From: Fermentibacter sp963718745 [NCBI: Candidatus Fermentibacterota bacterium]
Lineage (GTDB): Bacteria; Fermentibacterota; Fermentibacteria; Fermentibacterales
NCBI GenBank assembly: GCA_963718745.1
Contig: OY970370.1
Location: 2,170,001-2,234,000 of the forward strand
Length of the DNA: 64,000 nucleotides
Direction of reading: 5' to 3'
The translations under genes were made by a program, and so were the position numbers. The notes beneath the pieces are model-generated. The model was not told the origin of the DNA, did no database searches, and saw only the letters and a list, made by a program, of their open reading frames with translations. Each line of letters begins with the position of its first letter. The stretch's first letter is position 1. Positions 4,507 to 34,074 of this stretch are shown in pieces.

Positions 4507-5619
4507 CTATTTCCAAATGAGCAGTAGACCGTCATATTTGGGGCCAAATTGCGGCGAAAACAGCTGGGGGTTACTGACTGACCATGCAGTACCGTCCAGT
4601 TTGTGCAGATCCAAGTAGGCTCTCTCGTGACTGAAGGGCATCTGGCGGCACTGAGCTTCGATTTCGCCTTGCTGCCTACCCACAAGCTCTTTGTCGTTCA
4701 TGCCCAGAGCGAGGATCCTGATTACGAAAGTCTTGCTCTTTGTGGAGAGATTCTGGTTGGCAAAGAAATATCCTTCAGGTAGCAAGCCCTCCAGGGCTGT
4801 TCCGTTGCGCTCATCTGGATTCAGACACGCATGAGTTGCACCCATACAGCACAGAAGATTTCCGTCTCTGTTTGCAGCACTCCTCAAGGCCCTTTGAACT
4901 GTTTCACGAAAGAAATGTGTTCTGATCTTCTCACTGTCGGCCGACCTTGCCCCGCAGTGCGAGTGGTATGTGATCGACGTCCGAAGTATCTCGAGCGCGA
5001 AGCGCATCTCCTCATCAATGTCGGGCGAATAGGTGCCTCTTAACTCCCCCCAACACTCCTCAATGGAATCCAGGCATAATCTCAGCTTCTCAGGACTGTT
5101 ACAACCGCGCAATATCGTGCTGGCTTCAAGCAATCTGTCTCTTCCATTCCGAGTATTCGAGAAGCTGGCGATCCTCTTAAAGTATTCCTTCAGCGAGCTG
5201 GTATCTCGCCACAGCGAATGCTCTATATCAATTGAGGTGACCTGAAGCCTGTCATTCCCGCAACGCTGGCTATTGTGTCGGATTACTTCTCCTATGAACT
5301 CCGGTGTGTCTCTCGGTAATTGGTTCATGTAACCAAGGGTCATCGCCTCGAATCTAAGATGATGGCTGAACTCGGTTTCTAAAGCAAGAACCTTTGTATT
5401 ACAGTGGCTGTTCAGATACATCGCAAGCTCAAACTCTGTCTTGACTGTATCAACGCAATGATGAGTCTCCCCCAGAATTATCATCGTCGAATCTGCTGTG
5501 TATTTTCCGACAACCTCGAAATCTGCGCCATCAATTGGCACAAGGAGCTTCTCTAGAGCTTCTTTCATGAACTTCAGACTACCTTGCCTGCCGTTTGAGT
5601 GGCACAAGATTCTGACCAA
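4507..5619 (-). CDS. Tiki/erythromycin-esterase/ChaN-like hydrolase
   Basis: A 370-residue soluble protein with an ILGETHH motif (G50, E51, H53, H54), a second acidic motif LALE81 and a late GATHA motif (H263). The order and spacing of these Glu/His residues resemble the erythromycin esterase, ChaN and TraB/Tiki group, which includes hydrolases and metal-dependent peptidases. Overall similarity appears distant. It is A+T-rich like the maturase, which follows after a 164-nt gap without a gene. From its position it could cleave the leader of the peptide at 2878-2994 or give self-protection; both are inferences. Confidence 0.55.
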   Translation of the reverse strand: MVRILCHSNGRQGSLKFMKEALEKLLVPIDGADFEVVGKYTADSTMIILGETHHCVDTVKTEFELAMYLNSHCNTKVLALETEFSHHLRFEAMTLGYMNQLPRDTPEFIGEVIRHNSQRCGNDRLQVTSIDIEHSLWRDTSSLKEYFKRIASFSNTRNGRDRLLEASTILRGCNSPEKLRLCLDSIEECWGELRGTYSPDIDEEMRFALEILRTSITYHSHCGARSADSEKIRTHFFRETVQRALRSAANRDGNLLCCMGATHACLNPDERNGTALEGLLPEGYFFANQNLSTKSKTFVIRILALGMNDKELVGRQQGEIEAQCRQMPFSHERAYLDLHKLDGTAWSVSNPQLFSPQFGPKYDGLLLIWK

Positions 5620-5658
5620 ACACGACTAGATCCAAGCGCCCAAGAGGTCACACTAGGG

Positions 5659-6430
5659 TCTACCTGATTATCGCGAACTTTCCGATGGCCTGTTCACTCT
5701 CGGTCTGCACACAGAAGAAGTAGAGGCCGGAAGTCACGAGCCTGCCCTCGGCGTTCTCGAGGTCCCAGTACTCCTCACCGGAATCGCCGCCGAAGCTCCT
5801 GTGCTGCAGAGTCGCGACATGGTCGCCTCCCAGCGTGTAGATACGGATGTCACATATCGGCGGCAGATGGGTGAAGGCGATCTTGTCGGCATGGCTCTGC
5901 TCCCACTCGGCAGAACCCCTGTATGGATTGGGGACGACGCTGATGGTCCCGGTCCAGTCTGGATCGGAAGCCCAGCCGGGGACAACCGGGATGGGTGTGC
6001 CGTCCAGGGTCTGCTTGTAGTTCGTCCTCTGGCTCTCCACTCCCGTCTCGGCATCATAGGCGCACAGGACGTAGTAGTATGGAAAGCCTCTCGTCACGCT
6101 CCCGTCCGACCAGGAGTACGTGCCTGCGTCGATGTCGGCGATCAGCTGCCAGTCCGTCGCGTTGAAGACCGATCGGTAGAGGTGGTACCCGCCGAAGGGA
6201 TCATAGCCTTCTGCATCGTCGCTCCAGATGATGTCCACCGTTCCGTCGCCGGCCTCGTAAAAGAAGGTCGGAACCGGCGGTATATCAGGAACACCCCAGC
6301 CGCCGTCCCGGTAGTAGGCGTCGAGGAGGTTGTCCGCCTGCTGCCTCAGGTCGGCAAGGCCCCTGCCGATGACGAAGCCTCCAACGATGTGCAGGCTGTC
6401 GCCGTCGGCAAGATCGACAGGCCCCATCGT
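5659..6430. repeat. 772-bp identical direct repeat, copy 2
   Basis: Partner of 154-925. It covers the 3' third of paralogue B, encoding the fibronectin-like region and sorting tail. The two copies lie 5,505 bp apart in the same orientation. Recombination between them would delete the RiPP cassette. Confidence 0.9.
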
Positions 6431-7918
6431 GAGAAGAAAGTCGTAGCGCCACGGTTGGTAGTCCATACCCAGCGGGTTGTCCTGCACGATCGGGAACGGG
6501 CCGGGGTTGTCAGGCTGGAAGGCATCGGGCGCGTTTGGATCGCCTATCCAGTCTGCGAGGTAGGCCGGCCCGCTGCGCCTTCCGCTGTACTCCTGGTTCT
6601 GACCCCATTGGTAGTCATAGCACAGCCCGTCTGAATCAGGTGTTTGATTCCAACCCCACCAAGAATGAGATAATGGAATAGGGCAACCGAAGACGTCTAT
6701 GGGCCGCTCGATGGTGCCGTCGGCCTTCCTTATCCAGAAGTCGAGCAGGCGCCACCCCGCAAACCCGTTGCATGGAGGGGAGTAGGTTGGCTCGCCAGAG
6801 TCGTCTGTGGATGAGGCCGGATTATCCGAGTCCCAAGAGTAGCTGAGGTTCCGTGGGACCACCGCGTAGGTCGTATCGCCGACGGAGTGCATCCAGTAAG
6901 AGGGCGGCATGCCGTCGGCGAATAGTTGAAGCCCGGTGTTGGGTTCGGTGGCGAAAATGGTATCTCCGTCCGCAACCTTGAACAGGATCGTGAAATGGTC
7001 CGAGACCCCGTCGGAGTTGGCGTCCGCATCTACTATGCCGTCCGATCCCCGGTAGTTGTAGAAGTAGTAGATCTCGTCCAGGGGATCGGCCCAGGAGGCG
7101 TCCGGGTTCTGCTGGTAGATGTAGGTGTCAGCCTCGCTCGCCCTCGTCCCATCATCGAACTCGTAGTCGAAGGTGGCGTCCGGATCGTTGCACCAGATCT
7201 CGTGGCCATCATAGAAAGTTAGATCATCGAGATAGAAGGTTGGAGAAGGATCGGCTGAGGCTATGACGGGTTCGGTCATAATGGAGAAGCTGAAGGCATC
7301 CAGCGGAACTCCCGGGTTGCCGTGCTCGCTCAGGTGTGTCACCGTTACATCGTTGACCAGGAACTGGTCATAGCCCGGCGTACTCCAGCTGTACGCCCTC
7401 TGGAAGGTCTTCACGCCGATGGGATTCTCGTTATCGGTGTACCAGTCGTCTTCGCCCCAACTCGACTCCTCGAGCGCGGTCGGACCGGGGATAAGCTTCA
7501 TCATTGGGAAGCCTTCCGTAGGTCCGAACTCCAATTCATTCGCACTGACCCAGGAAGCGCTGACATATGCGCCATCTTCGCCGCCGGAGGCAACTTGGCC
7601 AAATGCAGATGCCCAGATATACCCAAGATGAAGGTACTTTGACCCTTCGCCCCCCGGCCACTCCATGGTCCAGTCTTCCCAAGGATTGCCAAAAAGGCCA
7701 ATGTTCGTGAGGGTCATCCAGACGGCGGAGAGAGTTTGCTGGACCTCTGAGATCGGCGGACGCCCATTGATAAGTGAATCAGCTAGGATAGGCAGAGGCT
7801 GGTGCAGATATTCTGTAGTTGAGCCATCCGCCGCAATGAAAAGAAGGGCAGTAAACACAAAGGCTATTGAATCTGGTCCTCGCGGAATGAAGGCTCTCAC
7901 TTCTTGGTCCTGCACCAC
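5660..7918 (-). CDS. Secreted surface protein with C-terminal sorting tail, paralogue B
   Basis: 752 residues, co-linear with paralogue A. It has a hydrophobic export segment at residues ~17-31 (SIAFVFTALLFIAAD), the same TALEESSWGEDDW and DADANSDGVSDHF blocks and an identical last ~257 residues. The front two thirds differ from A at many positions, so the identical tail reflects later exchange. No lipoprotein partner lies upstream, unlike copies A and C. The stop lies 40 nt before the hydrolase gene at 5619, so this gene could be the first of the peptide operon. Function unknown; probably surface-exposed. Confidence 0.85.
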   Translation of the reverse strand: MVQDQEVRAFIPRGPDSIAFVFTALLFIAADGSTTEYLHQPLPILADSLINGRPPISEVQQTLSAVWMTLTNIGLFGNPWEDWTMEWPGGEGSKYLHLGYIWASAFGQVASGGEDGAYVSASWVSANELEFGPTEGFPMMKLIPGPTALEESSWGEDDWYTDNENPIGVKTFQRAYSWSTPGYDQFLVNDVTVTHLSEHGNPGVPLDAFSFSIMTEPVIASADPSPTFYLDDLTFYDGHEIWCNDPDATFDYEFDDGTRASEADTYIYQQNPDASWADPLDEIYYFYNYRGSDGIVDADANSDGVSDHFTILFKVADGDTIFATEPNTGLQLFADGMPPSYWMHSVGDTTYAVVPRNLSYSWDSDNPASSTDDSGEPTYSPPCNGFAGWRLLDFWIRKADGTIERPIDVFGCPIPLSHSWWGWNQTPDSDGLCYDYQWGQNQEYSGRRSGPAYLADWIGDPNAPDAFQPDNPGPFPIVQDNPLGMDYQPWRYDFLLTMGPVDLADGDSLHIVGGFVIGRGLADLRQQADNLLDAYYRDGGWGVPDIPPVPTFFYEAGDGTVDIIWSDDAEGYDPFGGYHLYRSVFNATDWQLIADIDAGTYSWSDGSVTRGFPYYYVLCAYDAETGVESQRTNYKQTLDGTPIPVVPGWASDPDWTGTISVVPNPYRGSAEWEQSHADKIAFTHLPPICDIRIYTLGGDHVATLQHRSFGGDSGEEYWDLENAEGRLVTSGLYFFCVQTESEQAIGKFAIIR

Positions 7919-20615: not shown

Positions 20616-20773
20616 CCACCCCCGCAGTCGGACACGGGCGGAAGGCCCTGCCGGCATTGGTGTTGCTCCGGCGGCAAACAGCTAGATTACGTTTGGTGGT
20701 CGCTCGGTGAGAGCGGGGTTTGCCGGGGTGTCGGGGAGACGGTCCTGCCCCGGAGGTGAGGAGAGGGACGGAA

Positions 20774-22492
20774 ATGTTGACCAATGGATCATCGGTGGCG
20801 ATGGCTGCCGTTCTGACGCTTTCGATGGCCGGATCCGCAGCGGGCCAGTGGAGCGCCGACTCACTTCAGAACCTCGAAGTGTGCGACCTGTCAGGTGAAC
20901 AGTCCTTGCCGAAAGTCGCGACCACCTCCGACGGAGGGTGCTTCGTCTCCTGGTTCGACTCCAGGAGCGGGAGCTACTGCCTCTATCTCCAGCGCATCGA
21001 CGCCGGCGGGAACGAGCTGTTCGACCCAGACGGCCTGCTGATCAGCGACCACTCGCAGCAGTCCTGGCTGGTCGACTACGACATGGCCGTCGATGGCGGT
21101 GACAATGCGGTGATCGTGTTCTCTGACACCCGCAACACGCCGGACGAGCTCGACGTGTCGGCCTACATGATATCGAGCGAAGGAACGTTCCTCTGGGGCG
21201 CCGACGGGGTGTGCCTCTCCGATCCTTCCGAAACGAGCTTCGAGGCCGCCCCGACCGTTGCGGTGACCCCCGACGGCAACAGCATCTTCGCCTGGGGTGT
21301 ATCGGGCTCCGACGACACTATTACCTTCCAGAAGCTGTCGCCGGACGGCGACAGACTCTGGGGCGACTGGGGCATCTCCGTCGTGGATCCCTCCGGTGAC
21401 CTCTCGATGCCGAATGTCGTCCCGTCAGGGCAGGACGACGCCATCGTGCTCTACAAGAGATCGACGGGCAGCTATCCCTACCAGACGACCGTGCTGTACG
21501 CTGGCCTGCTCGATGCCTCGGGCCCATGGGGATGGAGCGAAGGGTCGGTCCTGGTGTACGATTCGGGACACATGTCACCCTGGACCGTCCCCGGGATCGT
21601 ATCGGACGGCGAGGGCGGAGCGGTCATGAGCTGGTACGACAGCGTCGACCTCTCCACTTTCGAGGTATGGGTGCAGCATATAGACTCGGCCGGCAACCTG
21701 TTCTTCCCGCCCAACGGGGCGCAGGCTTCGACGAATTCGAACAACAGGCTGCATATGTATCCGTCAGCCATCTACAACCCGGGAGATGGTTTTACGTACG
21801 TGTTCTGGGTCGAGACGAACGACAACCAGAACATGTTCGGCGTGTACGGGCAGAAGTTCTCTTCAACCGGAAACAGACTCTGGATAGAGAGCGGTGCTCA
21901 GCTGGTCTCTCTCGGATCGAGCCAGATCTCTTTCGTGAGTCTGCTGGGTGATCCGGACGGGATGTACGTTGCATACCTCCGGGGCTCCGGGATTACTTCG
22001 GTAAGAACTCACCGGATCCTCTACAACGGATGGCAGGAATGGGGTCCGGTCACGCTCTCCGCTGCATCGATGGGCGGCAAGGACGACCTCGTGCTGTCTC
22101 CCGGATGCTGGGGCAGCGGCATACTGGCCTGGTGCGACTACAGGGAAGACTACGGCATCTACGCTCAGAACATCAACCCCGACGGGACGATGGGTCTGCC
22201 CACGGGCATACCGTCCGGGTCCGGCGGGCAGGTCCCCGTGCTGTCGATCCTCGACAATCCGGCCGTGCGAGGGAGCGTGGCCGTCCTGTTCTCGACGCCT
22301 GCTCCCGGAGAGGTGTCCCTGAGGATCTACGACCTGTCGGGACGGATCGTTGCCACCCTTGCGGACGAGGTTCTGCCCGCGGGTGAGCACGAGGCCACCT
22401 GGGCGTCCGGGCTCGGCGTACCCGCCGGTGTCTACATGGCGGTCCTCAGGGCGGGTGGACGGCCTGTACAGGCTAGGATGGTGCTGCTCTAG
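20774..22492 (+). CDS. Secreted beta-propeller-like protein with sorting tail
   Basis: 572 residues from ATG 20774, which has GGAGGTGAGGAGAGG upstream; an upstream in-frame ATG (20720) lacks such a site. The signal peptide covers residues ~1-24 (ending SAAGQ). The middle has repeated units of the form G-x-x-L-W/F-x-x-x-G (GGNELFDPDG, GTFLWGADG, GDRLWGDWG, GNRLWIESG), which suggest a beta-propeller. The end is a FlgD/Ig-like sorting tail (LRIYDLSGRIVATL, GVYMAVLRAGG). Probably exported and surface-anchored; function unknown. Confidence 0.8.
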   Translation: MLTNGSSVAMAAVLTLSMAGSAAGQWSADSLQNLEVCDLSGEQSLPKVATTSDGGCFVSWFDSRSGSYCLYLQRIDAGGNELFDPDGLLISDHSQQSWLVDYDMAVDGGDNAVIVFSDTRNTPDELDVSAYMISSEGTFLWGADGVCLSDPSETSFEAAPTVAVTPDGNSIFAWGVSGSDDTITFQKLSPDGDRLWGDWGISVVDPSGDLSMPNVVPSGQDDAIVLYKRSTGSYPYQTTVLYAGLLDASGPWGWSEGSVLVYDSGHMSPWTVPGIVSDGEGGAVMSWYDSVDLSTFEVWVQHIDSAGNLFFPPNGAQASTNSNNRLHMYPSAIYNPGDGFTYVFWVETNDNQNMFGVYGQKFSSTGNRLWIESGAQLVSLGSSQISFVSLLGDPDGMYVAYLRGSGITSVRTHRILYNGWQEWGPVTLSAASMGGKDDLVLSPGCWGSGILAWCDYREDYGIYAQNINPDGTMGLPTGIPSGSGGQVPVLSILDNPAVRGSVAVLFSTPAPGEVSLRIYDLSGRIVATLADEVLPAGEHEATWASGLGVPAGVYMAVLRAGGRPVQARMVLL

Positions 22493-23344: not shown

Positions 23345-23374
23345 TATCCGGTCAACAACCCGGGGAGGTGTTCC

Positions 23375-24382
23375 ATGCGGAGCCTGGCTTTGCTCTGTCT
23401 CATCGTCGCTTCAGGTGTTTCCTTCGCCGCGGAGCGCGTAGTGCTGTTCGAGGAATACACGTCGATCACTTGAGGATACTGCGGAAGCAGCTGGTCAGCT
23501 GTTAAAACGATGGTGAACGGATACCTTTCCTCGGGCGACCTCGCCCCCCAGATCCTCTTCTACAACGGTCCCGGCGCAACTGCGTACACCACGGCGCGCG
23601 ACGCCCTCTACGGCTGGAGCGCCACGCCCACTTTCCAGATCGACGGCGTTTCCCAGCAGCTGGGATGGAGCCAGGCGAACGTGCAGAACTACATCAACGC
23701 CCGTCTCGCCGTCCCGAGTTACGTCGACATCGACGTGACAGTCGTGGGCAACGCGTCGGGCGGCACCGCCTACTACACCGTCACGGTCGAGCAGGCTCCC
23801 GGTGTGACCGGCCCGTTCAAGCTGTGGTCGGCGATCGTCGAGAGCAACGAGATAGCCAGCTCCGCCTACGGTGTCTACTCCGGACAGGAGCTGATGTGGG
23901 AGCCCAGGGCGATGCCGATGGGCGCGACGGGCGCAGTCATCGACATAACCGGACCCTATCCCCAGACGATCAACATGTCCGGACCGTACACGCTGGATCC
24001 AGCGGCCCACACATTCTCGAATCTCGACGTGGTGACGTACGTGCAGGCCAGCACAGGCACGCACGAAGTCCTCAACGCCTCTTTCGTCGACCTCCCGGAC
24101 ACGGCGGCCGGCATAGAGGGCCCCGACGGGGACGTGATCGGGGAATCCTCCGTTCTCTCGACCTGGCCGAACCCTTCGAGCGGGCAGCTGAGCATCGGGG
24201 CGCTTCTCCCGGCAGGTGTCACGGGGACGATCACCGTATTCGATCTCGCCGGCCGTTCGGTGACCAGCTTCGATGCAGCCGGAGCCACAAGCCTTCAGAT
24301 CGATGCTCCGGGAGTGTACATCGCACGCCTCGAGACCTCCTCCGGTGAGCTGCTGACGAGCCGCTTCACCGTTATCCGCTAG
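23375..24382 (+). CDS. Predicted selenoprotein 1: exported UxxC thioredoxin-like/Omp28-like protein with sorting tail
   Basis: Read through one in-frame TGA (23471-23473, codon 33) this is a 335-residue protein. The signal peptide is MRSLALLCLIVASGVSFA. Next comes ERVVLFEEYTSIT-U-GYC-GSSWSAV, where U-x-x-C takes the place of a thioredoxin CxxC; the N-terminal pattern recalls Omp28-type proteins. The C-terminal ~80 residues are a sorting tail (STWPNPSSGQLSIGALLP, VFDLAGRSVTSF, GVYIARLET). Two tandem paralogues carry TGA at the same codon, and a SECIS-like hairpin follows. Sequence on both sides of the TGA is conserved and no start site follows it. Probably a surface redox protein. Confidence 0.85.
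23486..23503 (+). promoter_or_regulatory. SECIS-like hairpin, gene 1
   Basis: AGCAGCT - GGTC - AGCTGTT forms a 7-bp stem with apical loop GGUC. The loop begins 20 nt after the TGA (19 intervening bases). The E. coli fdhF SECIS has a GGUC loop at nearly the same distance. Confidence 0.75.
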
Positions 24383-24402
24383 CCTTCAAGTTTCTCGAGA
24401 GA

Positions 24403-24425
24403 GGGGCCGGAGCATCTCCGGCCCC
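24403..24425 (+). terminator. Terminator after selenoprotein gene 1
   Basis: A 10-bp perfect stem (GGGGCCGGAG / CTCCGGCCCC) with a CAT loop, 20 bp after the stop codon. It suggests separate transcription of the three paralogues. Confidence 0.65.
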
Positions 24426-24461
24426 TGTCCATTCCGGGCTGGTCCGAAACCCTGCTGGCAT

Positions 24462-24490
24462 TTGCAAAGTCGGAACACCATTCCATATTA
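24462..24490 (+). promoter_or_regulatory. Possible promoter of selenoprotein gene 2
   Basis: TTGCAA at 24462-24467, a 17-base spacer and ATATTA at 24485-24490. The word CCATATTAC is repeated at the same place before gene 3. Confidence 0.5.
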
Positions 24491-24521
24491 CGACTGTAGT
24501 TTTTACACGGGAGGTGACACA

Positions 24522-25538
24522 GTGCGCAAGTTCCTTCTGCTGAGCCTTCTCCTCGCGGTCGGCGTAGCCGGCGCCGCCGAGAGGACGGTCCTGTTCGAGT
24601 ACTTCACGCAGACTGGTTGAGGCACATGCTATAGCAGCTGGTCAGCTGTTAAAACCGCCATCCAGCCCTTTGTCGACTCCGGTGACGTCGCCCCGCTGTA
24701 CATCTTCTACTCGGGCACGCCCGGAAGTCCCTATGCGCAGCCCTTCAACACCGCACGCTTCAACCTGTACGGCGTGGGAGCCACTCCCACGGTCAAGATC
24801 GACGGGCTCGCGGCCTCCTACACGCCGTCCACCTACGCGACCACGATCAACAACAGGCTCGCGGTACCCAGCTATGTGTCGATCGAGGCCAACGTCGTCG
24901 GAGACGCCTCCGGCGGAACCGTCTACTACTCCATAACGGCCGAACAGGAGCTCACCTACACCGGACAGCTCAAGGTCTGGTCCGCGATCGTCGAGAACAA
25001 CTTCACTGGCTCCCTCGACCGGTTGGGGGCTATACAGCGGCAGGAGATGAGATGGATACCCCGCGCCATCCCGGCAGGCGCGCAGGGTACCGTCATCAGC
25101 TTCACGGGCCCCTATCCGCAGACCGTGAACATCGAGGGCTCGTACGTCCTCAACTCCGCCTCGTGGAACTTCGACAACCTCGCCATCGTCACCCTTGTGC
25201 AGCCCACGACCGGCACGCATGAGGTCTTCAACGCCGCCTACTCGGATCTCGCCGATACCGCAACCGGCATCGAGGGACCCGATGGAGGCGTGATCGATGA
25301 AGCCTCCGGCCTCTCGGTCTGGCCCAATCCCTCCAGCGGACAGCTCAGCATAGGCGCGCTGCTCCCCGGCGGGATCTCCGGAACAGTCACGGTCTTCGAC
25401 CTCGCGGGCCGCACCGTGACCAGTTTCGAAGCCTCGGGCGCCACCAGCCTCGAGATCGATGTCCCCGGAGTCTACATCGCCCGCCTCGAGACCTCCACGG
25501 GCGAGGCCATCTCCGAGAGGTTCACGGTAGTCAGGTAA
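24522..25538 (+). CDS. Predicted selenoprotein 2: exported UxxC thioredoxin-like/Omp28-like protein with sorting tail
   Basis: Starts at GTG 24522 after GGGAGGTGACACA and encodes 338 residues with TGA (24618-24620) read at codon 33. The signal peptide is MRKFLLLSLLLAVGVAGA. The active-site region is VLFEYFTQTG-U-GTC-YSSWSAV. The middle has IVENNFTGSL and FTGPYPQTV blocks, and the end is a sorting tail (SVWPNPSSGQLS, VFDLAGRTVTSF, GVYIARLET). It is closely related to its neighbours, with a conserved promoter region and ribosome binding site. Conventional annotation would give two broken pieces. TGA is used as a normal stop elsewhere in the window, so general recoding is excluded. Confidence 0.87.
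24633..24650 (+). promoter_or_regulatory. SECIS-like hairpin, gene 2
   Basis: AGCAGCT - GGTC - AGCTGTT, identical to gene 1, with 19 bases between TGA and the GGUC loop. The bases between TGA and the hairpin differ from gene 1, while the hairpin itself is unchanged. Confidence 0.77.
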
Positions 25539-25555
25539 TCTGCTTCGTTTCTGAC

Positions 25556-25581
25556 AAGGGCCGGGGGTCACCCCGGCCCTT
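25556..25581 (+). terminator. Terminator after selenoprotein gene 2
   Basis: An 11-bp stem (AAGGGCCGGGG / CCCCGGCCCTT) with loop GTCA, followed by CCTCTTTA. A typical rho-independent form. Confidence 0.7.
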
Positions 25582-25620
25582 CCTCTTTACTCCGGGTGTC
25601 GTTTTCTCGCATCGATTCTT

Positions 25621-25649
25621 TTACTTGGGCGGTCTGCCAGCCCATATTA
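25621..25649 (+). promoter_or_regulatory. Possible promoter of selenoprotein gene 3
   Basis: A weak TTACTT at 25621-25626, a 17-base spacer and ATATTA at 25644-25649 inside CCATATTAC, which is also found before gene 2. Confidence 0.45.
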
Positions 25650-25679
25650 CCGTTCAAACGAACCCCGGGAGGTGACACT

Positions 25680-26687
25680 GTGCGCAAGTTCCTTCTGCTC
25701 TGCCTTCTCATCGCGGTCGGCGTAGCCGGCGCCGCCGAGAGGACGGTCCTGTTCGAGTACTTCACGCAGACTGGTTGAAGCACCTGCTATAGCAGCTGGT
25801 CGGCTGTAAATTCCACGATAGGTACATACGTCGCCTCCGGTGACGTTGCTCCGCTGTACATGTTCTTCAACGGCCCCGCAGCCAATGCCTTCAACAACGC
25901 CCGGATAGGCGTATACGGCGTCGGAGCCACTCCAACGGTCAAGATGGACGGGCTCGCAGCGGCCTATGGTCCGGCGACGTATTCGAACACGATCAACAAC
26001 AGGCTCGCCGATCCATGCTACGTGGACATAGACGTCAGCATGGCGGGGGACTCCACCGGCGGCACTGCGTACATCAGCGTAACCGCCGAGCAGGAGCTCG
26101 GGGTGACGGGTCTGACGAAGGTATGGTGCGCCATAGTCGAGGACAACCAGCTCGCCTCCGGTTCGAGCTGGGGCGGCTACAACGGCAAGACGCTCGACTG
26201 GCTGCCCGTAGCATGGCCGATGGGCGCCACGGGCACGACCATAACCTTCACCGGACCTTACCCGCAGACGATAAGCATCTCCCACACCTACACGCTGAAC
26301 CCTGCGGTGCACACCTTCGAGAACCTGAGGGTCGTGACCTTCGTGCAGCCCACGGGCGGCACGAAGGAGGTCCTCAACGCCCACTACATGGATCTTCCCG
26401 ACGCCACCGGAATCGAGGAGCCCGAGGATCCGGCAACGGGAGAAGAATCCGGTTTCGACCTGTCGGTCTGGCCCAATCCGTGCGTCGGACAGCTCGGAGT
26501 CGGAGTCCTCATGCCTGAGAGCGTCACTGGAACCCTGTCCGTTTACGACATCACGGGGCGCGAGGTGGCCTCGTTCGAAGCTCAGGCCGTGAACACAATC
26601 GAGATAACCGATACCGGCGTCTACTTCGCGAGGCTTTCCGCTTCGACCGGAGTAACGCTCTCCGAGAGGTTCACGGTCATCCGCTGA
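25680..26687 (+). CDS. Predicted selenoprotein 3: exported UxxC thioredoxin-like/Omp28-like protein with sorting tail
   Basis: GTG start at 25680 after GGGAGGTGACACT; 335 residues with TGA (25776-25778) read at codon 33. The signal peptide is almost the same as in gene 2. The redox motif is VLFEYFTQTG-U-STC-YSSWSAV. The middle and tail have diverged more (SVWPNPCVGQLGVGVLMP, VYDITGREVASF, GVYFARLSAS), yet the TGA, the downstream Cys and the hairpin are kept. Conservation of the TGA through this divergence argues against sequencing error or decay. Confidence 0.87.
25791..25808 (+). promoter_or_regulatory. SECIS-like hairpin, gene 3
   Basis: AGCAGCT - GGTC - GGCTGTA. The closing U-A pair of genes 1 and 2 is U-G here, so pairing is kept (six of seven pairs). 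The loop GGUC and the 19-base distance from TGA are unchanged. Confidence 0.73.
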
Positions 26688-29509: not shown

Positions 29510-29911
29510 ATGAAGAAGCTGCTGACCGCGGGAATGGTCATAGCGGCACTCGGTTTCGCAGTTCCGGCCGCAGCAGGCATCAACCCGTTCTCCGAGGGCG
29601 GGGAGCCAGAGCCGTGCGACTGCTCCTCGAGCTGCACCTGCGGTGAGGACTGCACCTGCGCCGAGGGCGCGACCTGCTCCGGCGACTGCACCTGCGCCGG
29701 GGATTCCTGCGCATGCTCCGACGCCTGCACCTGCGGCGAGGACTGCACCTGCACCGAGGGCGCGACCTGCTCCGGTTCCTGCACATGCGGATCCGACAGT
29801 GCCGCCTGCGGCTGCGGATCCGGCTGCGCTCCTGCGGGAGCAAGCTGCTCAGCTCCTGTCGAGGGACAGCCCGTGTCCGGCCGTTGCGGAATGGGCGGCT
29901 GCGGCCGCTGA
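29510..29911 (+). CDS. Secreted cysteine-rich repeat protein
   Basis: 133 residues with a signal peptide (MKKLLTAGMVIAALGFAVPAAAG). The mature part has 24 Cys, mostly as CxC pairs, in two near-copies of a unit CTCGEDCTC-x-EGATCSG-x-CTC. Acidic residues and small side chains fill the rest. This resembles metallothionein-like metal-binding proteins or disulfide-rich extracellular proteins. A ribosome binding site (GGGAGGAG) precedes the ATG. Monocistronic, followed by a terminator. No family recognised. Confidence 0.75.
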   Translation: MKKLLTAGMVIAALGFAVPAAAGINPFSEGGEPEPCDCSSSCTCGEDCTCAEGATCSGDCTCAGDSCACSDACTCGEDCTCTEGATCSGSCTCGSDSAACGCGSGCAPAGASCSAPVEGQPVSGRCGMGGCGR

Positions 29912-30028: not shown

Positions 30029-31564
30029 ATGACGCTGTCAGTCCGCGGTTCGGGTCTCAGGATCGAAGATGTCGTAGAAGTTGCGAGGAACGGCCGGAAG
30101 GTGTCCATCGATCCCGGGGCCCTGGAGCGCATGAGCGTCTGCCGCGGAATGGTCGAACGGAAGATAGAGGCCGGAGAGGTCATGTACGGCATCAACACCG
30201 GCATAGGCGAGTTCTCCGAGACGAAGCTCTCCCCGGACGAGGTGCGGCAGTTCCAGAAATACCTCGTCTACAACCATTCCGCCGGGATCGGGGAGCCAGC
30301 TCCCCCCGAGCACGTCCGCGCCGCCATGCTCGGTCGCATAAATGTTCACTGCAAGGGGCACTCCGCGGTCCGGCCGGCGGTCACCCAGCTGATCTCCGAG
30401 ATGCTCAACCGCGGGGTCACACCGTGGGTCTGCAGCAAGGGCTCCGTGGGCGCCTGTGGAGATCTGGCCCCGATGTCGATGATCGCCCTTGTGGCCATGG
30501 GCGAGGGGCAGGCCTGGTTCGGGGGAGATCTCCTTTCCGGGGCGGATGCGCTCAGGCGTGCCGGGCTGGAGCCACTGGTCCTCCACGCGCGGGACGGCCT
30601 GGCCCTCATCAACGGATCCAACTTCCTCAACGCGATGAACGCGATCCACCTCTTCGACATCGACCGCTGGCTCAGGCAGGCGGAGATTGCCGCGGCGATG
30701 AGCCTCGAAGCGCTGCAGGCCAACCTCAGACCGTATGACAGGAGGGTGCACGAGCTCCGGGGATTCGCAGGCGCGGTCCGGAGCGCCTCTGCCATCCGCA
30801 GATGCATCGAGGGGAGCGACCTGATGGAGGGGCGCGTCAGGCAGAAGGTCCAGGACGCCTATTCGATGAGGAGCACTCCCCAGGTGATAGGTGCGGCACA
30901 CGATGCGGTCGCATATGCCCGTAAGCAGGTGGAGATCGAACTGAACGGAGTGGGTGACAATCCCATCTTCCTTCCCGAGAGCGACACTGTCCTCACCGGA
31001 GCCAACTTCCAGGGGACTCCCGTCTCCCTTCCGATGGAGATGGTCGGGACAGCCGTCACGATGGTCTCCGTGCTGTCCGAGCGCCGCCTCAACAGGCTGC
31101 TCAACCCGGCTCTCTCGGCAGGGCTCCCGGCCTTCCTCGCCGAGAAGCCCGGCCTCTTCAGCGGGCTCATGCTCAGCCAGTACACGGCGGGCATGCTCGC
31201 AGTGGAACAGCGCATCCTTTCGACCCCCGCCGCCTGCGCCTCGATTCCGGCCGCCGCCGACCAGGAGGACTTCGTCAGCATGGGCATGAACACCGCCCTC
31301 AAGAATGGGCAGATCCTGCGTAACGCGTTCGGTATCCTGGGGATCGAGATGATCGCGGCAGCCCAGGCCCTGGACTTCCGGGGGCACACGCTCGGCAGAG
31401 GCGTCGAGGAGGCCCGCCGGACACTCAGGAAGCATGTCGAGCACCTCGGAGAGGACAGGCCTCTCTACCCCGACCACAACCGGATGGTCGAGGTGGTCGA
31501 GAGCTGCGAGATACTGGATGCGGTCGAGGCGGTCACCGGGCCCCTCGACAGGGAGCGGTCGTGA
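30029..31564 (+). CDS. hutH: Histidine ammonia-lyase-like MIO enzyme with Ala-Cys-Gly triad
   Basis: 511 residues, normal for the family. Conserved features are YGINTGIGEF (catalytic Tyr53), NHSAGIGEP, the MIO-forming loop GSVGACGDLAP, NGVGDNPIF and QEDFVSMGMN. The MIO cofactor is normally built from Ala-Ser-Gly; here residues 142-144 are Ala-Cys-Gly. Mutant studies on Pseudomonas histidine ammonia-lyase showed that Cys in place of Ser143 can still give active enzyme, so activity is plausible. It deaminates histidine to urocanate, though a different amino acid or an aminomutase reaction cannot be excluded. The stop overlaps the next start by 4 bp. No hutU or hutI is nearby; an FTCD lies at 54309. 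Confidence 0.88.
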   Translation: MTLSVRGSGLRIEDVVEVARNGRKVSIDPGALERMSVCRGMVERKIEAGEVMYGINTGIGEFSETKLSPDEVRQFQKYLVYNHSAGIGEPAPPEHVRAAMLGRINVHCKGHSAVRPAVTQLISEMLNRGVTPWVCSKGSVGACGDLAPMSMIALVAMGEGQAWFGGDLLSGADALRRAGLEPLVLHARDGLALINGSNFLNAMNAIHLFDIDRWLRQAEIAAAMSLEALQANLRPYDRRVHELRGFAGAVRSASAIRRCIEGSDLMEGRVRQKVQDAYSMRSTPQVIGAAHDAVAYARKQVEIELNGVGDNPIFLPESDTVLTGANFQGTPVSLPMEMVGTAVTMVSVLSERRLNRLLNPALSAGLPAFLAEKPGLFSGLMLSQYTAGMLAVEQRILSTPAACASIPAAADQEDFVSMGMNTALKNGQILRNAFGILGIEMIAAAQALDFRGHTLGRGVEEARRTLRKHVEHLGEDRPLYPDHNRMVEVVESCEILDAVEAVTGPLDRERS

Positions 31565-34074
31565 GCGCGTCTGCGTCGCTGCTGATCGCTGCCGCAGTCC
31601 TCGGTCTCGCCGGCAGGGAGGGAGTGCCGCTGCAGTATCTGGACTCCAGAGGCAGGGAGCCGTCGCAGCCGCGCAGCGCACAGATCCCTGACGGATCGGG
31701 ATATACGCGTTCCGTAGCCGTCGAGCGTGATTCGTCGAGAGGCGACCGGGTGGTCCTGATCGTGGACGAGTCCGTGAGCGGAGGGATCGCAGCCTCACTC
31801 GCCACCTTCGAGGCGGACCTGGAGTCGGAAGGCTGGACGGTGGAGGTCTGGACGGTGACTGATCCTTCAGCTTCCGCGCTCAGGACCGATCTCCAGAGCG
31901 AGTACGCGCAGGGCGAGCTCAGGGGCGCCCTGTTGATAGGCAACATCCCCGCAGGCTGGGTCGAGGCTTCCGGAGGCGAGTACCCCGTCGACCTGTTCCT
32001 GATGGACATGAACGGCACATGGACGGACTCCGACATGGACGGCCTCTATGAGAGCTGGGCCAACCAGGCTCCGGAGATCTGGGTCGGGAGGCTGACCCCC
32101 ACGTGGCTGTCGTTCGGATCGTCGGTCGAGCTCCTCGAGAACTATTTCGCCAAGAACCACGCATACAGGTCCGGTACGCTGTCCCTGCCGGACAGGGCTC
32201 TCGCGTACGAGGAGGCGTTCACCGGCCTGACAGGGTACATCGACATGGTCTACGATGACGTGACCACGAAGTCCGACCCCGCGGGCACGACCGCGGACGA
32301 CTTCAGAGCGGAGCTCCTGAACGGTTACGAATGGGTCCATCTGATAGCCCATTCCAGTCCCTGGGGCAGCAGCTTCCACACGGGTGCCCCGCCGGCCGGT
32401 GCCGGAACCTTCAACAGCTACGAGGCGGTTCCTCTCGACCCGCACGCCTTCTTCTACATACTGAACTGCTGCACCAACGGCCGCTGGACCGAGATCGACA
32501 ACCTGGCCAACCTCTACATCTGGGCCGATACATACGGCATCGCGGTGGTGGCCCAGGCCAAGACAGACTACACGAACGACTTCTACGAACTGTACCAGAC
32601 CCTTGGGAACGGGCAGTGCCTGGGAGAAGCGTTCAGGGTCTGGCTCTCGGCCAACCTCGCACTCGAGCATGCAGCCGTCCTGCTGGGAGACCCCACGCTG
32701 AGGCCTCACGGCAACGGACAGGCGTCAGCAGTGCCGCAGGGCTCCCATCCTGCTCTCCTCGACGGCTGGCGGCTCAGGCAGATAACGGACGGGCTCCATT
32801 CGGAAGGGGACCTGTCGGTCTGCCGCGAGCCCGTATCGGGCGAGCTGATCGCGACCTTCGGCTCCTCGGATCCGGTCAGGGCCAACATCATGGCTACCGT
32901 GTCCGAGGGGGACACCTGGATGAGCCCTGTTCAGATATGCGAGCACGAATACTGGGACTGGCATCCTGCGATAGGCGCGGACGGCTCGGGAAATGCCTTC
33001 CTGGCCTGGCACAGCATGCACGACGACATCGAGACCTACGACATCTACGTCTCGACCTGGAACGGGTCCTCGTGGTCCGCCGAGACGCGGCTCACCGAGA
33101 CGCCCGCGTTCGAGACGGGCACGGCGGTCGCCGGCCGTCCGGGGCGTTGCTGGGTGGTCTGGCAGCAGTGGGACGCGGGGGATACGGACATCAGCGGGAG
33201 GATGTGGACGGGCTCGGCGTGGACTACAACCACCGACCTCGCCGCGACAGACTATTTCGAGAGGTCCCCCTCCATCGCCTCATCATCCTCGGGGTTCGGA
33301 CTGGCATATCAGGCCTGGCGTTCCGGAGCGCTCGCCATCTGCTTCCGTGACGCTCCCGACTCCGGGCCGTTCGGGCCGGAGACGGTCATCTCGCTTCCCG
33401 GCCCCGACTGCAGGGAGCCTTCGATCGCGGGCGATCCCGGCGCCCAGGGATATCTGGCGGCATGGGAATGCGACGGGGAGATCCTCGCGAGCCGACGGGA
33501 CGGAGGCGCATGGTCTGCTCCCGTGACGCTGTCCTCGAGCGGTTCCGCGTCCAGACCCTGCACGGCCGTGCTCGCAGGGGCCAGGCCCGCAGTATGCTGG
33601 ATCGAACAGGGTGGACAGGTCTGGGTTTCCTTCTACGACGGATCGGCCTGGACGGCACCCGGTCCCGTCGCCGCCCCGGGCGCCGTGGAATCGGTAGCCG
33701 CGTCCTACAAGACACCCGACCTCCTGGAGATATTGTTCGGTGCCAGGGGCGGGGACCTGCACTGGGACATCTGGGTTGCCGACGGCGATCCGCTGGGATT
33801 CGCCGAGGATCCGTCGGGACAGCCGCAGACGGAGTTGAGACTCCTGGCCAACCCGTCGGCCCGACCCGTCGCCTTCCTGGTCTCGGGAGGCTCCGCCTCG
33901 ATAGATGTCTTCGATCTTTCGGGACGCAGGGTCGCTGCCGTCCAGGCTGCTCAGGGAACGGTCTCCTGGGACGGATGTTCGTCGGAAGGCGAACCCCTGC
34001 CGGCGGGCGCCTATTTGGTTAGAGCGTGCTTCAGTGGTTCGGAGTCGGTCTGCCGGCTCGTACTGCTCCCCTAG
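31561..34074 (+). CDS. C25/gingipain-like secreted protease with propeller region and sorting tail
   Basis: 837 residues from a GTG overlapping hutH. After an N-terminal export segment, residues ~60-380 form a caspase/gingipain-like fold: VVLIVDESV, GALLIGNIPAG, WVHLIAHSSPWG (catalytic His) and FFYILNCCTNGRW (catalytic Cys). Residues ~400-740 are a repeated beta-rich region (WNGSSWSAETRL, WTGSAWTTTTDL). The end is a sorting tail (LLANPSARP, VFDLSGRRVAAV). Probably a surface Cys protease for host or peptide substrates. Its coupling to a histidine lyase may link extracellular proteolysis to amino-acid use. Confidence 0.8.
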   Translation: MSASASLLIAAAVLGLAGREGVPLQYLDSRGREPSQPRSAQIPDGSGYTRSVAVERDSSRGDRVVLIVDESVSGGIAASLATFEADLESEGWTVEVWTVTDPSASALRTDLQSEYAQGELRGALLIGNIPAGWVEASGGEYPVDLFLMDMNGTWTDSDMDGLYESWANQAPEIWVGRLTPTWLSFGSSVELLENYFAKNHAYRSGTLSLPDRALAYEEAFTGLTGYIDMVYDDVTTKSDPAGTTADDFRAELLNGYEWVHLIAHSSPWGSSFHTGAPPAGAGTFNSYEAVPLDPHAFFYILNCCTNGRWTEIDNLANLYIWADTYGIAVVAQAKTDYTNDFYELYQTLGNGQCLGEAFRVWLSANLALEHAAVLLGDPTLRPHGNGQASAVPQGSHPALLDGWRLRQITDGLHSEGDLSVCREPVSGELIATFGSSDPVRANIMATVSEGDTWMSPVQICEHEYWDWHPAIGADGSGNAFLAWHSMHDDIETYDIYVSTWNGSSWSAETRLTETPAFETGTAVAGRPGRCWVVWQQWDAGDTDISGRMWTGSAWTTTTDLAATDYFERSPSIASSSSGFGLAYQAWRSGALAICFRDAPDSGPFGPETVISLPGPDCREPSIAGDPGAQGYLAAWECDGEILASRRDGGAWSAPVTLSSSGSASRPCTAVLAGARPAVCWIEQGGQVWVSFYDGSAWTAPGPVAAPGAVESVAASYKTPDLLEILFGARGGDLHWDIWVADGDPLGFAEDPSGQPQTELRLLANPSARPVAFLVSGGSASIDVFDLSGRRVAAVQAAQGTVSWDGCSSEGEPLPAGAYLVRACFSGSESVCRLVLLP

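Follow-up and report, generated by a model that had tools for sequence, protein, structure and literature searches.

Three consecutive genes of a Candidatus Fermentibacterota bacterium raise the question whether an in-frame TGA near the start of each of them is read as selenocysteine (Sec), and what the resulting proteins would do. The genes are located on the forward strand of a stretch of 64,000 nucleotides (contig OY970370.1, positions 2,170,001 to 2,234,000), which is called the window in the following. They are paralogues, gene 3 being 62% identical to gene 2 and 55% to gene 1. An earlier reading of the DNA alone, called here the sequence-only reading, had placed the TGA exactly at codon 33 and a Cys at position 36 in all three cases, and this was confirmed (U-GY-C, U-GT-C and U-ST-C). 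The three genes very probably make thioredoxin-like selenium proteins tagged for export to the cell surface, and it is highly likely that they encode exported selenoproteins that act as surface thiol-disulfide oxidoreductases. The features of the locus are summarized in Table 1.

The codon at this site was compared across the family. Gene 3 was searched against 60 relatives of genome G001; 44 of them had a match, some via the tail only, and in 28 of the 60 genomes a match carried TGA at the site (at least two TGA matches in 13 of these). A set of 90 sequences was compiled from the matches listed that cover the site, whereby duplicates were merged on the first 150 bases and fragments without the site were excluded. 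The set includes the three genes of the window, and 52 of its 55 TGA sequences come from 28 other genomes. In this set the codon was TGA in 55 sequences, a Cys codon (TGC or TGT) in 35, and another codon in none. The Cys three positions downstream of the site was present in 90 of 90 sequences. The sequence-only reading had proposed to check this codon in homologues, and had named a sense codon other than Cys as an outcome that would speak against it. No such codon appeared, and Cys was found wherever TGA was absent. A tree of 79 rows (at least 250 residues) requires two changes between Sec and Cys: 33 Cys genes form one group, and a lone Cys gene (L082) is placed within the Sec group.

A profile search of 385 genomes revealed 54 that matched at 1e-10. 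Beyond genomes G001-G042, 26 were among the matches listed and 20 were retrieved; 12 genes had the TGA in U-x-x-C and eight had C-x-x-C. One of the 12 TGA genes (L162) duplicates a member of the set of 90, and another one (L173) has a shifted motif. The latter, a distant relative from G176, reads C-G-U-A-A-C, with Cys at the usual site and the TGA two codons further on. Three distant TGA copies (L156, L158, L160) were present in G354, which is outside the main block of relatives.

The RNA 3' of each of the three TGA codons of the window can fold into a short stem, with a GGUC loop about 20 bases downstream. The bacterial selenocysteine insertion sequence (SECIS) has a G in its apical loop. It is described as a stem-loop directly 3' of the UGA (PMC9312934), and the predicted hairpins of the window fit this form. 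The hairpin was tested in a fixed register, and the synonymous codons were redrawn 500 times from each gene's own usage. The inner six pairs were intact in 46 of the 55 TGA genes, whereas the redraws gave 0.8 genes on average and never more than 5. The result was similar for the subset with distinct peptides, i.e., 39 of 46 TGA genes were intact versus 0.8 by redraw. Not a single one of the 35 Cys paralogues had six intact inner pairs. For the window genes 3, 2 and 1 the redraw chances were 0.008, 0.004 and 0.002, respectively. In an alignment of 50 rows, from which the window was excluded, two-sided pair changes were present in 34 cells versus 9.6 after shuffling, and pairing fell from 90.9% to 20-63% when the partner strand was slid. 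With a covariance model made from 50 non-window rows, the three window sites were the top matches (E 5.1e-12, 8.2e-11 and 8.4e-8; the next one 0.18), whereby the model contains sequence besides structure, and, thus, protein kinship is reflected too.

The genes of the Sec machinery were searched in the relatives. Genes selA, selB and selD were scored by their curated cut-offs and tRNA-Sec by more than 65 bits, a threshold that was chosen because second matches, which were taken as other tRNAs, scored 47-53 bits. Of the 28 genomes that carry a TGA member, 24 passed for selA, 24 for selB, 24 for tRNA-Sec and 27 for selD. All four genes were present in 19 of the 28, and G004, which has the same tandem, was among these. 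The sequence-only reading had named the lack of this machinery in a near-complete genome as another outcome that would speak against it. This outcome did not appear, and relatives of the window's source carry selA, selB, selC and selD. The anticodon was tca in both tRNA-Sec genes that were tested. In addition, TGA family genes directly adjoin genes of the machinery, i.e., selD, selA and selB at L065 (G034:C253:150-1450), and selD and selA at L050 (G032:C99); in G018, selA and selB adjoin fragments of the family. Among the matches listed, most selD genes above the cut-off have an in-frame TGA within selD itself. In G004:C20 (L093 / L127), a selD paralogue without TGA (5257-6180, minus strand) adjoins a Cys-form paralogue of the family (6332-7297, minus strand). 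Taken together, the comparison of sequences shows UGA codon 33 as a predicted Sec/Cys site, which is followed by a conserved hairpin of the SECIS form, in a lineage that bears the sel genes.

The sequence-only reading had also ascribed a surface-sorting tail to each product. Indeed, all three proteins passed the cut-off of TIGR04183, the model for the type A sorting tail of the type IX secretion system (T9SS). With Pfam's model for this tail, genes 1, 2 and 3 scored 23, 27.2 and 24.6 bits, and gene 2 alone passes the cut-off of 27. For a wider survey, 42 members (30 Sec, 12 Cys) were chosen by the author from 78 rows of at least 300 residues, and the T9SS type A tail was found at E 0.001 in all 42. 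SprA, the T9SS component that was searched, is the outer-membrane channel of this system. It was above the cut-off in 45 of the 60 relative genomes, including G001 and G004. The tail and the signal-like N-terminus point to export and a surface location of the three proteins.

In a PDB search, a profile of the 42 members matched gingipain tails, thioredoxins (weakly) and, over almost the whole length, HBP35 of Porphyromonas gingivalis. HBP35 (PDB 5y1a) was the sole solved chain that was matched over most of the profile (E 9.1e-5; profile 19-309 on chain 36-335), and by this match the profile and HBP35 have the same domain order from end to end. The N-terminal part otherwise matched thioredoxins, one glutaredoxin and thiol:disulfide proteins, each time weakly (E 0.018 and up). 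HBP35 was also first in a Foldseek search (E 1.1e-11, 16% identity, root-mean-square deviation 12.9, with a poor query model), followed by unrelated proteins, e.g., RbmA and transglutaminases. The likeness comprises the plan of a thioredoxin domain, a middle part and a C-terminal domain of the T9SS type, and the CGYC of HBP35 aligns with the U-x-x-C of the family. The active residue of HBP35 is Cys, whereas the window proteins have TGA/Sec. HBP35 also binds hemin. Pro85 is near invariant in the family alignment, and we take its position to be that of the thioredoxin cis-Pro. The insulin-reducing activity of HBP35 is higher than that of Escherichia coli thioredoxin, it is abolished by the change of C48 and C51, and a glycosylated outer-membrane form is described (PMC2907840). 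A thioredoxin-like fold around the U-x-x-C is suggested by the matches of the profile to HBP35 and to thioredoxins. From the tail, the match to HBP35 together with its activity, and the near-invariant Pro85 we infer that the three proteins are probably surface thiol-disulfide oxidoreductases with an attacking Sec.

The sequence-only reading had offered a peroxidase or a disulfide enzyme, and of these the disulfide enzyme is favoured and the peroxidase disfavoured. The proteins could be selenoproteins that serve as a surface peroxidase or another selenol catalyst instead of a disulfide oxidoreductase. Sec is commonly used for peroxide reduction. In addition, the table of a 2026 review contains a Prx-like family with U-x-x-C (PMC13188914). 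However, the invariant Cys at +3 and the near-invariant Pro at the cis-Pro position speak for a disulfide enzyme, no peroxidase was among the 26 PDB profile matches listed, and Pfam listed neither a peroxidase nor a thioredoxin for the window proteins. A peroxidase is, therefore, unlikely, but it is by far the most serious of the alternatives.

Several results weigh against the view that the three genes encode surface-exposed selenoproteins with a disulfide-active site. First, at the thresholds used, at least one sel gene was missing in nine of the 28 genomes that carry a TGA member (G001, G007, G022, G024, G031, G034, G035, G040 and G042, all of them in many contigs), and G035 showed selD only. 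The sel genes were read in the genomes of relatives, not in the source genome of the window, and within the 64 kb of the window there was neither a tRNA nor an Rfam match. Second, two of five covariation measures of the hairpin were no better than shuffles, i.e., the pairs with two-sided changes (4 versus 3.0) and the further pair types (12 versus 10.9), and the sequences are related and coding. The folding energy of a fixed stretch of 45 bases had a mean z of only -0.54, p 0.05 was reached in 13% versus 9% of the Cys genes, and none of the three window genes was significant. This minimum free energy was a poor test for the hairpin, and the synonymous-codon test in a fixed register followed it. 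RNAalifold on the alignment of 50 rows gave only -1.73 kcal/mol. Third, G002 carries a TGA member, yet its SprA was not above the cut-off. Last, an AlphaFold model built from five sequences was of poor quality (mean predicted local distance difference test score 55), and, therefore, the Foldseek result was taken as support only.

It could also be argued that selenium is not involved and that a changed genetic code or a suppressor tRNA leads to the insertion of a standard amino acid (Gly, Trp or Cys) at the TGA. This would explain a frame that is open across the TGA and under selection. However, TGA terminates 18 of the 38 window frames that were retained by the codon-usage script, including gene 3, in agreement with the claim of the sequence-only reading that it is an ordinary stop elsewhere in the window. 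The homologues have Cys at the site and never Gly or Trp, the hairpin is confined to the TGA genes, and the relatives carry the sel genes. Both a changed code and a suppressor tRNA were rejected as very improbable. Even less probable is a nonsense mutation or an assembly error in decayed genes, with the TGA as a true stop: some copies elsewhere do look broken, e.g., the fragmented tandem copies at L069 (G042:C12:31500-35500), which look decayed or badly assembled and one of which has an extra TAG, but pseudogenes were rejected because the TGA is shared by 55 sequences and purifying selection persists downstream of it, the ratios of nonsynonymous to synonymous substitution rates after the TGA being 0.18, 0.26 and 0.15 for window genes 1, 2 and 3 versus their G004 counterparts.

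The proposed surface selenoproteins have distant relatives that are already known. The Omp28-like context of the sequence-only reading was right in kind, but weak. For Pfam Omp28 (PF11551), gene 1 scored 17.3 bits and gene 2 scored 24.4, versus a cut-off of 34.9, and no match was listed for gene 3; all matches to the Omp28 family (PF11551, NCBIfam NF033782) were under the curated cut-offs. A further difference is that NF033782 is named as a lipoprotein family. NCBIfam NF045500, 'Omp28-related selenoprotein', is GOS_C in the review table mentioned above (PMC13188914). For GOS_C, an ocean survey of 2008 gives 74 Sec sequences and a thioredoxin-like fold, and no functional evidence in its account of this family (PMC2398784). 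The thioredoxin-like fold and the U-x-x-C are common to GOS_C and the window proteins. The NF045500 scores of genes 1, 2 and 3 were 20.5, 30.3 and 12.3 bits, versus a cut-off of 200, and none of the 60 relative genomes had a match above this cut-off. As judged from these comparisons, the window proteins are distant relatives of GOS_C, and the family is a much-duplicated, separate branch of that selenoprotein kind. The layout had been called not known by the sequence-only reading, which does not hold for the Omp28-related selenoprotein as such. In the open-licence PubMed Central literature, the searches made yielded no paper on a selenoprotein with a T9SS tail, the papers listed for selenoproteins together with type IX secretion being unrelated by their listings. 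No paper was found there on Omp28 selenoproteins, and none on Sec in Fermentibacteria or Fermentibacterota. New are the HBP35-like form with a T9SS tail, the expansion in this lineage and the tandem, whereby the scan for the tail covered the family of the window.

In the proposed mechanism, ribosomes with SelB and Sec-tRNA would read the UGA as Sec. The protein would cross the inner membrane via its signal peptide and the outer membrane via the type IX system, and would then be retained at the cell surface. The thioredoxin-fold domain, with U-x-x-C and the Pro at the cis-Pro position, would be an HBP35-like thiol-disulfide oxidoreductase in which selenium replaces the attacking sulfur. That there are several Sec copies, and in many of the genomes also a Cys paralogue, suggests that labour is divided by substrate or by selenium supply. 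A more general idea, to which we give somewhat less than an even chance, is that Fermentibacterota display type IX-exported selenium thioredoxins outside of the cell, with Cys spares in many genomes, and thereby have an extracellular selenium redox system. Such a system may, for example, open protein disulfides for surface peptidases or pass electrons outward. If the proteins are surface-exposed with selenium in the active site, Sec chemistry is placed outside of the cell, beyond the cytoplasmic reductants, and this raises the testable question of what keeps a surface selenol working. In addition, the family offers numerous pairs of a Sec and a Cys form of the same enzyme, together with a clear SECIS, and is thereby good material to study why Sec is retained.

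One claim of the sequence-only reading is not true in the literal sense, namely that no start site follows the TGA. Long frames are opened downstream of it by ATG 23510, GTG 24774 and ATG 25860. A standard gene caller would probably start at these codons, and the signal-like N-terminus and the active site would be lost. Because ordinary gene calling cuts at the TGA, the family, which has TGA members in 28 of the 60 relatives, is likely to be split or missed. When the window was scanned for TGA codons with read-through, five candidates including gene 3 were obtained, but the scan is insensitive because genes 1 and 2 went unflagged. The other four candidates (32933 and 39048 on the minus strand, 36768 and 59524 on the plus strand) did not overlap with matches of the hairpin model. 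A G+C-rich hairpin is present downstream of each of the three genes, and that of gene 2 alone was detected by the terminator scan, which found 2 sites versus a shuffle mean of 1.8.

Table 1. Features of the three tandem genes (positions in the window).
Feature	Position	Strand	Details or basis
Selenoprotein gene 1	23375..24382	+	336 codons including stop; ATG start; U33-G-Y-C36
Ribosome-binding-like site, purine-rich, gene 1	23362..23368	+	by eye
N-terminal hydrophobic stretch, signal-peptide-like, gene 1	23375..23431	+	by eye; genes 2 and 3 have one at the same place
In-frame TGA (predicted Sec), gene 1	23471..23473	+	codon reading, Sec/Cys alignment, covariance model
Bacterial SECIS-like hairpin, gene 1	23486..23503	+	7 pairs, loop GGUC
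T9SS type A sorting tail, gene 1	24164..24367	+	TIGR04183, 28.9 bits, cut-off 23
Strong G+C-rich hairpin past gene 1	24402..24426	+	z -3.06 for 24383-24440; absent from the terminator-scan list
Selenoprotein gene 2	24522..25538	+	339 codons including stop; GTG start; U33-G-T-C36
Ribosome-binding-like sites, genes 2 and 3	24509-24514, 25667-25672	+	by eye
In-frame TGA (predicted Sec), gene 2	24618..24620	+	codon reading, Sec/Cys alignment, covariance model
Bacterial SECIS-like hairpin, gene 2	24633..24650	+	7 pairs (an eighth in one fold), loop GGUC
T9SS type A sorting tail, gene 2	25317..25523	+	TIGR04183, 31.6 bits, cut-off 23
Terminator-like hairpin past gene 2	25556..25581	+	fold and terminator scan
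Selenoprotein gene 3	25680..26687	+	336 codons including stop; GTG start; U33-S-T-C36; own stop is TGA
In-frame TGA (predicted Sec), gene 3	25776..25778	+	codon reading, Sec/Cys alignment, covariance model
Bacterial SECIS-like hairpin, gene 3	25792..25807	+	6 pairs, loop GGUC
T9SS type A sorting tail, gene 3	26466..26672	+	TIGR04183, 32.1 bits, cut-off 23

A scan of species genomes confirmed two loci. The nearer one, L001, belongs to a Candidatus Fermentibacteria bin and has 76% identity over gene 3. Its flanks are the same as in the window, i.e., a BON/LysM gene and a zinc-ribbon gene (76 and 69% identity), but between them L001 (1-3420) has one family gene and the window has three. In G004 three family genes are again in tandem, and each of them is closest to its counterpart in the window, with identities of 74-78% (gene 1 74%, gene 2 75-76%, gene 3 in G004 and L001 76-78%). 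The upstream BON/LysM and T9SS-tail genes of G004 are 78 and 75% identical to those of the window, and the 4.6 kb of contig downstream of the G004 tandem showed no zinc-ribbon gene. The one-to-one counterparts indicate that the tandem predates the divergence of G004 from the source of the window.

Three further genes in the vicinity of the tandem were observed. The product of the gene at 20720-22492 (plus strand), upstream of the tandem, likewise has a T9SS type A tail (27.1 bits versus a cut-off of 23). The gene at 31561-34074 (plus strand) encodes a Peptidase C25 of the gingipain kind (Pfam, 38 bits versus a cut-off of 23), for which no NCBIfam model matched. The last example, at 29510-29911 (plus strand), encodes a small protein whose start is signal-like and which contains many repeated Cys residues.

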